Below, piece after piece: positions 9,592-14,042 of a stretch of DNA of 64,000 nt; position 1 is the first letter of the stretch, and each line of letters begins with the position of its first letter. Below the pieces are notes generated by a model. That model ran no database searches, was not told where the DNA came from, and saw only the letters and a list, made by a program, of their open reading frames with translations. The position numbers and the translations under genes were made by a program. This DNA comes from Hydrogenovibrio marinus (GTDB lineage Bacteria; Pseudomonadota; Gammaproteobacteria; Thiomicrospirales; Thiomicrospiraceae): NCBI RefSeq assembly GCF_013340845.1, contig NZ_AP020335.1:2418001-2482000 (forward strand), read 5' to 3'.

Positions 9592-10164
9592 ATGACATAC
9601 TCTTCTAAAACCCTCAGCCCTAAGTGGTTTGCAAAACCATTAAAACACAGGATGTTGCTAACCAGAAACTTGGAAGACTGGCTGTTTGATCCATCTTCTC
9701 TAACTGCAAAGTTAAGACAAAAGTGTCCTGAACTGTCGGTCACAATCTTGTCGGAAAAATTGGAATATCCACTACCAGACGAGCAACAACGTTTAAAAAT
9801 GGTAGCTGGAGAAAAGGCGTGGATCAGAATAGTGACGCTTACCTGTGGCGACTTACCGCTGGTTTATGCCAGAACAATCATTCCCAACTTTCAGCCGGGC
9901 AACCCATGGTTTTCACTAAAGACATTGGGGCATACGCCATTAGGGCATGTTTTGTTCGCAAAGGATATCAAAAACCATTATTCCCGTTCAGAATTCGAAT
10001 GCCAAAACCAACGAAAAATATGGCCTTACCTTGATACCAAGGCCGTTTTTAGTTCGAAAAAAGGGAATAGATTAGCTTCGAGACGTTGCGAATTCTCTAA
10101 AAAAGGGAATTCGCTTTTATTAACTGAGGTGTTTTTACCCAACAGCTTACCGCTATTTGATTAA
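9592..10164 (+). CDS. ubiC: chorismate--pyruvate lyase
   Basis: 190 residues. UbiC splits chorismate into 4-hydroxybenzoate and pyruvate, the first step to ubiquinone. Recognisable segments are the LTRNLEDWL-like N-terminus, VYARTIIP (with the conserved Arg) and the C-terminal LLLTEVFLP that carries the conserved Glu. ubiA, the next enzyme, lies at 15.8 kb on the other strand instead of adjacent. The end overlaps the convergent anti-sigma gene by 4 bases. The 3' end holds a terminator-like hairpin at 10088-10118. Confidence 0.88.
   Translation: MTYSSKTLSPKWFAKPLKHRMLLTRNLEDWLFDPSSLTAKLRQKCPELSVTILSEKLEYPLPDEQQRLKMVAGEKAWIRIVTLTCGDLPLVYARTIIPNFQPGNPWFSLKTLGHTPLGHVLFAKDIKNHYSRSEFECQNQRKIWPYLDTKAVFSSKKGNRLASRRCEFSKKGNSLLLTEVFLPNSLPLFD
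10088..10118 (+). terminator. terminator-like hairpin inside the 3' end of ubiC
   Basis: GCGAATTC (10088-10095) pairs perfectly with GAATTCGC (10107-10114) across an 11-base loop, followed by TTTT. It lies within coding sequence about 46 bases before the ubiC stop. Because of the convergent gene downstream, an embedded terminator is plausible, but the U-tract is short. Confidence 0.35.
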
Positions 10165-10871
10165 AACTTATGGTAGCTCCATCCGTGCTGCATTTTATCG
10201 ACGATTTCGTCAACTGCGGTACGGTCTGACTCAACATTTGAAATCAGCTTAACTGGATGCCCTGAATCAGCACGACGTTCTAAAGCGCGCTTACAGGCAA
10301 GCAACTTAAGGTTGTCATATTTTTTCAGCATCTCGATAATTTCAGCTCGATTTTTGTTTTTCTGATCGAACAAGTCGATTCCATGGTCATTTGCGACGAT
10401 TTCAACCTGGGGCTTTGAAGTCGTTGTAGCTGTTTTTTCCAATAATTCATTTGCGGTTTGTAGCAAGGCTTGTACACGAGCAGGCTTATCTGAATCAATA
10501 TGTAAAATAACTTTTTTAGGCGCAAAGTTATCCGCCACGAAATTCGACGCCGCATTCGCATCCTGAAGCTGTCCTGTCTGATGAGACACGACAAATCCCA
10601 AACCAAATGCCAAGGTCAGCGAAGCAGCAACTGCCCAGCGTGAACCCCAGCCTTTTGAAGATTGAACATCAAGTTCTGGCATAGGTGGAATTTCAACTTT
10701 TTGGTAATGCTCCAAAATCTGCTGTTTAATCTTTCTCAGTTCACAGACTTCTTCTTTTAATTCATCATCTAAACGCATCGCCTTTTCAAATGCATTTTTT
10801 TCTTTTGAAGAAAGATCTCCATCAATATAGGCATGCAGATTTTGAACAGTAAATTTATCAAGCGCGTTCAT
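10161..10871 (-). CDS. anti-sigma factor with a DsrE-like periplasmic domain
   Basis: 236 residues. The N-terminus (about 1-55; AYIDGDL and a helix pair) resembles the anti-sigma domain of ECF regulators, but it lacks the HxxxCxxC zinc motif. One membrane span is at about 75-96. The C-terminal part (about 119-236) begins KKVILHIDSD, continues VEIVANDHGIDLF and has LLACKRALE with Cys193, a pattern very like the two DsrE-like secreted proteins encoded opposite. The gene starts 2 bases after the sigma gene ends, so the two are cotranscribed. I infer that the external DsrE-like part senses a sulfur or thiol signal, or binds the secreted homologues, and releases the sigma factor. No cleavage site is evident. 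Confidence 0.7.
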   Translation of the reverse strand: MNALDKFTVQNLHAYIDGDLSSKEKNAFEKAMRLDDELKEEVCELRKIKQQILEHYQKVEIPPMPELDVQSSKGWGSRWAVAASLTLAFGLGFVVSHQTGQLQDANAASNFVADNFAPKKVILHIDSDKPARVQALLQTANELLEKTATTTSKPQVEIVANDHGIDLFDQKNKNRAEIIEMLKKYDNLKLLACKRALERRADSGHPVKLISNVESDRTAVDEIVDKMQHGWSYHKF

Positions 10872-10873
10872 GT

Positions 10874-11446
10874 CTATTTACTCTTCTTAAGACTCACCAC
10901 ATTATGATGATAATGCGGAATATATTTCTCACTTGTTACCAGTTTTTTCAGCTTGTCACGTGCTCTGGAAAGCCTACTCATAACGGTTCCCACTGGTATT
11001 TCCATGACCTCTGCCACTTCCTGATAACTGTAGCCTTGCAGGTCAACCAGAATAATAATTTCTCTTTGATCGACAGGTAGACACCCTATCGCATCATGAA
11101 TATTTTGGATGGTCTGTTTTTTGATATACAGCGCCTCAATGGATTCAGACTGTAACTCTTCCGAAAAGTCATCAACATTGACTTGCTGCCAACGTGAATT
11201 ATGGCGGCAATTATCATAAAACAGATTATGCATCACTTTGCATAACCATCGATCAATGTTCTCAAAGCTGGTAATGGTTTCTGCTTTTTGTAAAGACTTT
11301 AACATGGTGTCCTGCACCAAATCCTGAGCAAGCGAACCATCCTGACACCAAGCAAAAGCTATACGGTACAGGTTCGCATAATGCGACTCCAAAACCGCAT
11401 GCAGCTTGGTTTGATTACTTTTTTGCTTTATCCAAGTTCTTATCAT
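10874..11446 (-). CDS. ECF-type RNA polymerase sigma factor
   Basis: 190 residues. Sigma region 2 spans about 21-87 (AQDLVQDTMLKSLQK, then IDRWLCKVMHNLFYDNCR) and region 4 about 117-168 (GYSYQEVAEVMEIPVGTVMSR, shown here as a helix-turn-helix). There is no sigma region 1.1 or 3, as expected for the ECF group. It is the first gene of a sigma/anti-sigma pair. Targets are not known; the divergent DsrE-like genes and porin are the natural candidates, and an ECF-like promoter is visible before them. Confidence 0.92.
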   Translation of the reverse strand: MIRTWIKQKSNQTKLHAVLESHYANLYRIAFAWCQDGSLAQDLVQDTMLKSLQKAETITSFENIDRWLCKVMHNLFYDNCRHNSRWQQVNVDDFSEELQSESIEALYIKKQTIQNIHDAIGCLPVDQREIIILVDLQGYSYQEVAEVMEIPVGTVMSRLSRARDKLKKLVTSEKYIPHYHHNVVSLKKSK

Positions 11447-11578: not shown

Positions 11579-11603
11579 GGAACAAAGTGGAATAAACGGC
11601 TCT
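11579..11603 (+). promoter_or_regulatory. candidate ECF-sigma promoter for the DsrE-like genes
   Basis: GGAAC (11579-11583) followed after 16 bases by CTCT (11600-11603) resembles the GGAAC...TCT pattern of ECF promoters. It is about 60 bases before the first DsrE-like gene. No equivalent GGAAC element is seen facing the sigma gene itself. Confidence 0.4.
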
Positions 11604-11665
11604 CCCCGCCCGTTATTGCCATGAGTACTCAAAGTTTTAAATTCAACTAGAAGGAAATTGTGGTG

Positions 11666-12124
11666 ATGAAATTTTTAACACGTTCGTTTATTTTGGGCTG
11701 GCTATTCAGCTTGCTACTCTCGCCGCTGGCGATGGCTGCTGAACAAGAAGCCCCGCTACCTGATACCTTTGCCGCCCACAAAGTGGTATTGCAAATCAGT
11801 GACACCGACCCTTTTAAGCAAACTTTGGTTCTCAATGTTGCTGGCAACCTAATGAAATATTACGGCCCTGAGAATGTTGATATCGAAGTAGTCGCTTTTG
11901 GTCCAGGCTTACGTTTAATGATGAAGGGCAATGTAAACACATCTCGCATCAAATCAATGATGAGTGCAGGCGTTCGTTTCAGTGCATGTCAAAACACACT
12001 GAATAACTTCGCGAAAAAGCTTGGTTATACCCCAGAAATCATTCAAGGCGTACAGATGGTTCCGGCTGGCGCGGGCAGAATCCTGCAACTGAATGCTGCT
12101 GGTTACCAAATCCTTAAACCATAA
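11666..12124 (+). CDS. secreted DsrE-like protein 1
   Basis: 152 residues from the ATG at 11666; in-frame GTG codons at 11660 and 11663 are also possible with AAGGA at 11651. A signal peptide (about 1-24, ending AMA) directs export. The mature part has the DsrE/F-like pattern KVVLQISDTD, VDIEVVAFGPGL and VRFSACQNTL with Cys108. Classic DsrE proteins are cytoplasmic sulfur carriers, so an exported form is unusual but known as a family of periplasmic or secreted DsrE-like proteins. It is followed 29 bases later by a paralogue. A function in sulfur or thiol chemistry is inference. Confidence 0.8.
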   Translation: MKFLTRSFILGWLFSLLLSPLAMAAEQEAPLPDTFAAHKVVLQISDTDPFKQTLVLNVAGNLMKYYGPENVDIEVVAFGPGLRLMMKGNVNTSRIKSMMSAGVRFSACQNTLNNFAKKLGYTPEIIQGVQMVPAGAGRILQLNAAGYQILKP

Positions 12125-12153: not shown

Positions 12154-12645
12154 ATGTTCAACAAAATGAAATTTTTTAAATTGATGTTTGGATTACTGAT
12201 TGCCGGCCTAGCAATGTCAGGACAAACTTCTGCAAACGACCGTTATGGTGATCAGAAAGTGGTTTATCACATTAACTATGATGACCCAAAGCACCAAGCA
12301 ACTGTTTTGCATAACATTCAAAACAACATCAATGCCGTTGGCGCGGATCACATTACTGTCAAAGTGGTTCTACACGGAAATGGATTATCTTTACTGCTAC
12401 TTCCTAAAGCCTTAAAGACACATCCAAAATTTCGTACCGCAAACGCGACATCTGAAATGCAGCAAAAAATTGACGCTTTAAAAATGCAAGGCGTGCAATT
12501 TGATGTTTGTGCCAACACGCTTAAAGGCAAGGCTGTGGACTATAAAAAAGACCTTTACGATGTGGATTCAAAAGATGTTGTCCCAAGCGGAGTTGCTGAG
12601 CTTGTTCGCTTACAACAACAAGGCTATGCCTACCTAAGACCTTAA
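12154..12645 (+). CDS. secreted DsrE-like protein 2
   Basis: 163 residues with a ribosome site TTAGGAGC before the ATG. Signal peptide about 1-27. The mature part parallels its neighbour: KVVYHINYDD, ITVKVVLHGNGLSL and VQFDVCANTL with Cys119. It carries an insertion of about 15 residues (around 84-100) relative to the first copy. The two are tandem paralogues and likely one operon. The shared Cys motif also matches Cys193 of the anti-sigma factor encoded opposite, which suggests a related ligand or interaction. Confidence 0.8.
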   Translation: MFNKMKFFKLMFGLLIAGLAMSGQTSANDRYGDQKVVYHINYDDPKHQATVLHNIQNNINAVGADHITVKVVLHGNGLSLLLLPKALKTHPKFRTANATSEMQQKIDALKMQGVQFDVCANTLKGKAVDYKKDLYDVDSKDVVPSGVAELVRLQQQGYAYLRP

Positions 12646-12693: not shown

Positions 12694-12743
12694 TCAGGAG
12701 AACTTTATCTCAGAAAAAGTAAATTTAAAAAGAGATGATACTT

Positions 12744-14042
12744 ATGAAAACACAATTTATGAAAAAAGTACTTCCACTCGCTCTACTTGCAGCAACAGCT
12801 TCGACAACAGCTCATGCTTCCAATTGGTTGATGCTACAAGGAACAGAGCCAACCAACCAGGCACCTCGTGCAAAAGTTTGGGGCTTTGTCCAATTGCAAT
12901 ACCAACAAACTGATGACACCAAATTAAAAGCTGGACCTTACAAAGGGAAATCTGCTGCCTTCAACCAAATTGCACCACAACTGTCTTCATCTAGTAGTTT
13001 TAACGTTAAGCGTGCTCGTATTGGGGTGAGAGGAAACAACTTTCCACTAGATCCTAAAATCAACTATTTCCTATTAGCTGAATTCGGTAACAACGGGATT
13101 ACCACAGGTAAAAATGCTTCTCAAGGTCAGCTGACTGATGCCAGTGTCACCATCAATCATATTCCTGGTGCACGCATTCGTGTTGGTTTATTCAAAACAC
13201 CTGGCTCTGAAAAAGCCATGCAAGCGATTGGCGTCTACAATTACATCAACTTTACAAATGTGGTTGATCGACTATTACTTGAACGTTTTTTTGACACTTC
13301 AACTGCCGATACTCAGCGCAACGGCCCTGTTGGTGCCTTCCGTGATACAGGCGTTGAAGTCTTCGACAGCTTCAACCTAAAAGGCTGGGACACCAGTTAT
13401 GCCGTGATGATTGGTAACGGCAATGGCTTGGCAAGAGTTGACAACAACAAAGGCAAAGATACTTATCTATATCTTTCTACCGAAAAGGTCTTTGGCAACT
13501 CTAAAGGTCCTCGCAGACATGGCTTGAAGTTTTATGCTTGGTCACAAAATGGTAAGCGCACTATCGACAGTACGGAAAAAAATCGTACTCGTTCGGGTCT
13601 TGGTACAACTTATTTCGACGGAAAATATCGTTTAGCAGCTGAATATATTACAGCCGAAGGTATGATTTACGGCGGAACCAAGGGCGCTGGACTACCATCT
13701 GATGGTGCAACTTTTAGCGTTCAACCTGATCAGGCAGCCAATGGTTACTATGTTGACCTAGGATACCGTGTTGTGCCGAACTTTGAGTTGAACCTTCGTT
13801 ATGATTACTTGGATAGCGGAACCAAAACCAACGCTAAAACAGGTACCAACAACGATGAAGAAAGACAGTTCACGACAACTACAGTCGGTGCCCAGTACTT
13901 CCTAAACAAGAAAACGACATTAATTGCGAACTACGAGATTCGTGATATTAAAGCTCCTGGCGCACCATCAGCAGCACCTGTGCATCAAATCTTGGATTCT
14001 CTAGACAATCGTATTGGACTAGAGCTAAGAGTTGTTTTCTAA
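12744..14042 (+). CDS. OprO/OprP-type outer membrane porin
   Basis: 432 residues from the ATG at 12744, which has AGAG upstream; an ATG at 12735 is in frame. Signal peptide about 1-26 (ending AHA). The protein resembles phosphate-selective porins O and P: AKVWGFVQLQY, VKRARIGVRG, KINYFLLAEFG, then a long beta-barrel pattern ending in the terminal aromatic ...ELRVVF typical of outer membrane proteins. It lies 98 bases after the DsrE-like pair and may be controlled with them. The selectivity (phosphate, sulfate, thiosulfate or other anions) cannot be read here. Confidence 0.85.
   Translation: MKTQFMKKVLPLALLAATASTTAHASNWLMLQGTEPTNQAPRAKVWGFVQLQYQQTDDTKLKAGPYKGKSAAFNQIAPQLSSSSSFNVKRARIGVRGNNFPLDPKINYFLLAEFGNNGITTGKNASQGQLTDASVTINHIPGARIRVGLFKTPGSEKAMQAIGVYNYINFTNVVDRLLLERFFDTSTADTQRNGPVGAFRDTGVEVFDSFNLKGWDTSYAVMIGNGNGLARVDNNKGKDTYLYLSTEKVFGNSKGPRRHGLKFYAWSQNGKRTIDSTEKNRTRSGLGTTYFDGKYRLAAEYITAEGMIYGGTKGAGLPSDGATFSVQPDQAANGYYVDLGYRVVPNFELNLRYDYLDSGTKTNAKTGTNNDEERQFTTTTVGAQYFLNKKTTLIANYEIRDIKAPGAPSAAPVHQILDSLDNRIGLELRVVF

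Follow-up and report, generated by a model that had tools for sequence, protein, structure and literature searches.

A predicted DsrE-like periplasmic domain fused to an anti-sigma factor points to a putative trans-envelope sulfur switch in Gammaproteobacteria

In the window, the 64,000-nucleotide stretch of the Hydrogenovibrio marinus genome analysed here, an ECF sigma factor is encoded next to an anti-sigma factor that carries a predicted DsrE-like domain beyond its membrane span. We propose that the pair is a trans-envelope sulfur switch, in which the DsrE-like domain would detect periplasmic sulfur species and free the ECF sigma factor to transcribe secreted DsrE-like genes, a porin gene and sometimes sox genes. 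We assign this reading a probability of roughly 0.6. The features of the locus are as follows.

10161..10871, minus strand: anti-sigma factor, 236 aa, with a cytoplasmic anti-sigma domain, one membrane span and a predicted periplasmic DsrE-like domain
10692..10871, minus strand: residues 1-60 of the anti-sigma factor, a helical domain without the Hx3Cx2C zinc motif
10584..10634, minus strand: membrane span of the anti-sigma factor, residues 80-96, from hydropathy
10164..10520, minus strand: predicted DsrE-like domain of the anti-sigma factor, residues 118-236, from the AlphaFold2 model and from structure and profile comparison
10293..10295, minus strand: codon of Cys193 of the anti-sigma factor, invariant in 74 of 74 copies
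10874..11446, minus strand: ECF sigma factor, 190 aa (Pfam Sigma70_r4_2, E 3.1e-19; Sigma70_r2, E 1e-11)
11589..11614, plus strand: ECF-type promoter motif GGAATAAA-N14-CGTT, directed towards the DsrE/porin genes
11660..12124, plus strand: secreted DsrE-like protein of type D1 with conserved Cys110 (Pfam DsrE, 22.9 bits against a cut-off of 22.7)
12154..12645, plus strand: secreted DsrE-like protein of type D2 with conserved Cys119 (Pfam DsrE, E 3.3e-10)
12735..14042, plus strand: outer-membrane porin with an OprP-like barrel, from Foldseek and the Pfam matches of its family

The ECF gene lies upstream of the anti-sigma gene, co-directional and 2 nt apart. A preliminary description of this DNA had paired the ECF sigma factor with a single-span anti-sigma factor, and both genes and a single hydrophobic span (residues 80-96) were indeed found at the positions listed. 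The signal peptides of D1 and D2 were judged by eye, and an alternative ATG at 11666 is possible for the D1 gene. A PADLOC scan returned zero matches.

The AlphaFold2 model of the anti-sigma factor, built from 30 homologues (mean pLDDT 79.6, pTM 0.50), has a helical domain at the N-terminus, a low-confidence linker that includes the membrane span, and a C-terminal domain with block pLDDT of 83 to 96. The N-terminal helices (residues 3-6, 9-16, 22-34 and 36-58) have high pLDDT, and this part bears a modest resemblance to RsiW (5wuq_C, Z 6.4) and RslA (3hug_D, Z 5.9) in VIA-align comparisons. The NCBIfam anti-sigma model matches 24 of 30 family members at E<0.001 and zf-HC2 matches 25 of 30 at E<0.01; the window protein is under the cut-off in both cases (E 1.2e-7 for NCBIfam). 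Pfam gave the window protein a zinc-finger-type match under the threshold in its N-terminal part and otherwise chance-level matches. The Hx3Cx2C zinc motif occurs in none of the 74 full-length copies, and it is described as optional among class I anti-sigma factors in the relevant passages of PMC7406223. The membrane span has a mean hydropathy of 1.98 in the window protein, and 73 of 74 homologues pass the threshold of 1.4. With a roughly four-helix N-terminal domain and a gene adjoining an ECF sigma gene, the protein shows two features of class I (ASDI) factors. It shares with RsiW, RskA and RseA the helical N-terminal domain, the one span, a C-terminal domain beyond it and the adjoining ECF gene, but differs from them in that this C-terminal domain is DsrE-like.

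Residues 118-236 superpose on MTH1491 (1l1s) with Z 18.4 and an rmsd of 1.7 A over 110 residues, followed by ST0148 (2pd2; Z 17.2), YchN (14.1), DsrE (12.7) and TusBCD (12.1), all by VIA-align. The best ten rows include five with DsrE, DsrE/F-like or Tus in their titles, YchN, which its E. coli annotation describes as DsrE/F-like, and BT1422, whose title gives no known function; the next row falls to Z 7.1. Foldseek is in agreement, and a phmmer search of the PDB found MTH1491 with E 1.9e-4 from the single sequence and 8.4e-12 from the family profile. The DsrE fold of residues 118-236 is confidently predicted from these models, which bears out the domain assignment of the preliminary description. 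MTH1491, ST0148, YchN, DsrEFH and TusBCD share the predicted fold (Z from 18.4 to about 12), whereas the domain here is membrane-tethered, predicted to be periplasmic and fused to an anti-sigma domain. The likeness to TusD was seen in fold only; its single sequence left the domain unaligned with the sensor profile, and just 11 residues of YchN aligned with that profile, insignificantly, so these alignments lend no support to a catalytic equivalence of Cys193.

Pfam DsrE (PF02635) does not match the window anti-sigma factor even at E 1, so Pfam-based annotation would overlook the domain. Because the PF02635 cut-off, a detection threshold and not a trait, is not reached, we name the domain DsrE-like and do not count it as a Pfam DsrE member. 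In the collection of 10,930 class I anti-sigma factors scanned with Pfam 31.0 that PMC7406223 describes, the term DsrE is absent from the main text; the Pfam model matches just 4 of 30 members of the present family at E<0.01 (best 9.1e-4), so a scan of that kind would mostly miss the domain.

The same domain is related to the proteins encoded opposite. When the anti-sigma family (A1, 30 rows) and the D1 family (A3, 42 rows) were compared as profiles, the probability was 98.6% (E 1e-15) over the whole C-terminal domain; the D2 family (A4, 28 rows) gave a weaker 93.2% (E 3e-7). Judged by these profiles, the sensor domain is homologous to both secreted DsrE-like proteins. A chance or artefactual resemblance was ruled out by the profile and fold comparisons together. 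The proposed likeness to the two neighbours therefore stood, and the literal ACxxAL motif said to be shared with them did not (ACKRAL in the anti-sigma factor, ACQNTL and VCANTL in the neighbours). Cys193 aligns with the Cys of MTH1491 and of D1, and the residue is conserved in the secreted relatives (A3 and A4) as well; its conservation hence does not point to sensing in particular. In a tree of domain sequences (85 of 163 sequences, every other one, and few columns) the sensor domains form one clan with an SH-aLRT of 99, apart from the secreted proteins, so a single fusion event suffices.

The fusion was detected in 37 of the 62 genomes of the window's family, including one (G034) in which the gene appears in two frames as two pieces. 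Full-length matches to the family profile were found in 66 of 369 Gammaproteobacteria genomes, a count that excludes partial matches (e.g. G318, G323 and G150) and includes G282, where the gene is split in one open frame. A sample of 398 genomes of the phylum yielded a full-length match in three, all Gammaproteobacteria, and none of the matches listed from other classes spans both halves. An oddity confined to one genus was ruled out by this spread over family and class. Cys193 and Trp231 are unvarying in all 74 full-length copies, His124 is kept in 71 and Asp126 in 41.

Gene order is conserved around the fusion. Among 81 stretches carrying it, the ECF gene directly adjoins on the same strand in 80, and the sole remaining one (L120) starts 119 bases before the gene. 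A secreted-type DsrE gene lies within 3.5 kb in 65 stretches, a porin gene within 4.5 kb in 58 and both in 55, with several stretches cut by contig ends. When only the 64 stretches that have 3.5 kb or more of sequence on their ECF side are counted, the ECF gene is present in 64, DsrE in 55, the porin in 49 and both in 47. The simple gene caller missed the full fusion in nine of the 81 stretches, most of which were recovered by tblastn, and one further stretch (L215) was omitted from the counts, as it overlaps L114. The commonest order is anti-sigma < ECF / DsrE > (DsrE >) porin. The fusion is thus widespread and accompanied by secreted DsrE-like genes, the association on which the preliminary description had staked its proposal. 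Within the 62 genomes of the family the porin was found in 33 and coincides with the fusion in 32; the contig of the lone porin-only genome (G048) ends inside its ECF gene. The family genomes with the fusion only are G034, whose contig has 3,126 bases, and four of genus g6, where the fusion occurs in four of nine genomes and the porin in none of nine, which counts against the proposed switch.

Variants of this order were also observed. The g6 stretches (L077, L083, L094 and L095) lack the porin and have a DsrE gene of the D2 type on the anti-sigma strand, downstream of the anti-sigma gene. Two stretches (L117 and L134) have two tandem ECF/anti-sigma pairs before a single DsrE-porin operon, which suggests duplication and divergence of the switch. 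In another (L135:4494-6626), a 5'-nucleotidase distantly like SoxB (180 bits against a cut-off of 550) faces the switch in place of DsrE and porin; L122 has a gene matching it (the two products have 710-724 residues), the SoxB score being from the L135 gene only.

The best Foldseek match of the window porin model is OprP (2o4v, E 3.7e-13), and other porins score nearly as well. In the porin family 16 of 36 members match Pfam Porin_O_P at E<0.01, the window member not among them. The family (A2, 36 rows) has a highly conserved ANWLMLQGTEP start just past the signal peptide and invariant Arg93, Arg95, Arg99, Arg203 and Arg355 in the 36 rows; it is perhaps an anion-selective pore.

The recurrence of secreted DsrE-like genes beside the fusion bears on an alternative that we consider unlikely, namely that the domain is a docking module with which the secreted DsrE proteins would hetero-oligomerise in a feedback loop, sensing then residing in the soluble proteins or in a readout of their level. 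RseB gives such feedback to RseA. Under this alternative the homology of the sensor to proteins under its would-be control and their co-occurrence in 65 of 81 stretches would be expected, and DsrEFH (2hy5) and TusBCD (2d1p) are, by their structure titles, complexes of such domains. Against it, nine of the 64 sufficiently long stretches have no DsrE-like gene within 3.5 kb, and at two loci (L112 and L116) the switch and porin are present but no DsrE-like gene was seen in the locus, either between them or alongside.

The intergenic regions contain a recurrent ECF-type motif. After two of 57 regions shorter than 120 nt were dropped, GGAAT[A/T]-N15-17-CGT[C/T] was found towards the divergent gene in 43 of 55 divergent spacers (30 of 31 spacers from the window's family, 13 of 24 from other lineages), the rate per region in mononucleotide shuffles being 0.3%. 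In 48 of the 55 the divergent gene encodes a DsrE-like protein or the porin. Outside the family the motif as written occurs in only seven of 16 spacers with a DsrE gene first, which counts against the proposed switch. Towards the ECF gene it was found in 16 of 55 regions, 14 of 24 outside the family and just two of 31 (L101 and L102) within it, so autoregulation is not supported in the family.

The regulon looks small from these motif scans. In 10 other genomes, chosen largely for having the motif at their locus and two of them without a match, the strict motif occurred 13 times, with 11 of these occurrences at this locus, compared with five for the reversed control. A relaxed motif was not enriched in the window genome (18 matches against 17 for the reversed control), and a wide regulon there is not supported. 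Besides the window site, the best promoter-like match in that genome is GGAATAA-N15-CGTT, some 20 nt ahead of a further secreted DsrE-like gene (L164:7206-7775; G000:C1:751205-751774, minus strand) that is followed by a ferredoxin-like gene. By an exact-pattern scan this site is present in three of 11 genomes of the genus (G000, G007 and G012), and DsrE-like matches of a span similar to the L164 gene are widespread in the family, also in fusion-free genomes. A few further motif matches in the window genome are intergenic and precede unrelated genes.

The distribution of the fusion follows that of sulfur oxidation genes. A soxB gene (E <= 1e-130) is present in 65 of 66 fusion genomes and in 84 of 303 without the fusion, and the sole fusion genome without soxB (G115) has dsrA. 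Counted by family, soxB occurs in 39 of 40 with the fusion and 38 of 142 without. The P values of this association (3e-29 for genomes, 5e-17 for families) are indicative only, as the genomes are related and not independent, and the values are therefore overstated. Strong dsrA matches were found in 51 of the 66 fusion genomes. The 84 soxB genomes without the fusion count against the proposed switch.

In just three of the 66 genomes, from two families, sox genes are closely linked to the fusion, as spotted by eye in gene listings. G326 (L214) has, on the minus strand, the order ECF, anti-sigma, soxX, soxY, soxZ, soxA, soxB, with all five Sox proteins above the NCBIfam cut-offs, a divergent D1 gene and porin, and the motif upstream of the ECF gene. 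In G216 (L213), a member of that genus, the ECF-anti-sigma-soxXYZAB order recurs, with SoxX and SoxY above the cut-offs and the motif again before the ECF gene. In G227 (L215), of the other family, the switch has soxXYZAB and an additional DsrE-like gene to one side, with about 2 kb between soxB and the anti-sigma gene, and a thioredoxin-like gene and a sulfur-transport gene (PF04143) to the other. The idea that the switch senses sulfur gains support from the near-confinement of the fusion to soxB genomes and from the ECF-anti-sigma-soxXYZAB order in one genus.

These observations also bear on two further alternatives. Improbable in our view is a sensor of thiol-reactive or oxidative envelope stress (arsenite, metals or hypochlorite) acting at Cys193, with the sox link reflecting lifestyle only. 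The invariance of Cys193 would fit such a sensor, as would, if the genes correspond to those of this locus, the response to arsenite of Thioalkalivibrio DsrE/F-like genes given in the pertinent passage of PMC6620896. A general stress sensor would not be expected to be nearly confined to soxB/dsrA genomes or to have sox genes within the same putative operon. The RseA system senses porin misfolding, and that the present switch does likewise, with the DsrE-like domain a structural relic, is very improbable: a porin often forms the far-end target (58 of 81 stretches), but Cys193 and Trp231 are constant in 74 of 74 diverse copies, the fusion is nearly confined to sulfur oxidisers, and in L135 the distantly SoxB-like 5'-nucleotidase stands where DsrE and porin would be.

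In the sulfur switch that we favour, the N-terminal domain of the anti-sigma factor would keep the ECF sigma factor at the membrane, and the DsrE-like domain, if periplasmic as predicted, would detect reduced or sulfane sulfur either directly at Cys193 or via the secreted DsrE homologues. Upon the signal the sigma factor would be freed by proteolysis or a conformational change, and would then presumably read the GGAATAAA-N14-CGT[C/T] promoter and transcribe the divergent dsrE(-dsrE)-porin operon. It may also transcribe its own operon in many lineages that do not belong to the window's family, and soxXYZAB, located downstream in that operon in one genus, would be co-transcribed there. The periplasmic DsrE-like proteins and the anion-type porin could raise the uptake and handling of sulfur anions, e.g. 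thiosulfate. A more specific version, which we offer tentatively and with the odds somewhat against it, is that a DsrE sulfur carrier was recruited once in Gammaproteobacteria as a periplasmic receptor of sulfane sulfur, with Cys193 loaded directly or by a relay of secreted DsrE proteins, the ECF factor freed in response, and sulfur-anion uptake and, in some lineages, Sox induced.

To our knowledge, little is known about how sulfur oxidisers perceive sulfur compounds beyond the inner membrane, and the switch suggests how sulfur-oxidising bacteria could do so. SqrR, BigR, FisR and SoxR are cytoplasmic regulators of sulfur-oxidation genes that respond to sulfur species, whereas the proposed switch would sense outside the inner membrane. 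ECF control of sox has a precedent in Arcobacter butzleri, where, according to the passages of PMC3445524 on sigma2 and sigma7, these ECF/anti-sigma pairs affect sox transcription and activity, the two ECFs act oppositely and some of the effects must be indirect; it comes from another phylum, and the comparison covers ECF control of sox. The preliminary description knew of no anti-sigma factor with a DsrE-like sensor, and this holds within the literature searched, which contained no description of an anti-sigma/DsrE-like fusion and whose scope did not take in supplements or the main paper on ECF classification (10.1093/nar/gkaa1229). If the proposal is correct, the locus would be a conserved, small and testable circuit, with one sensor, one sigma factor, an invariant Cys and a motif mostly at this locus in the genomes scanned.

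Secreted DsrE-like genes of genomes that lack a Dsr system also gain a context from this locus. Five dsrE homologues, which may be of the kind described here, and no other Dsr component are given for Hydrogenovibrio SP-41 and XCL-2 in the passage of PMC6501319 on these genes. The window genome has two more DsrE-like genes with signal-peptide-like starts (L165:4403-4915 and L166:4326-4883), one of which lies near dapB/dnaJ-like genes, as named by eye.
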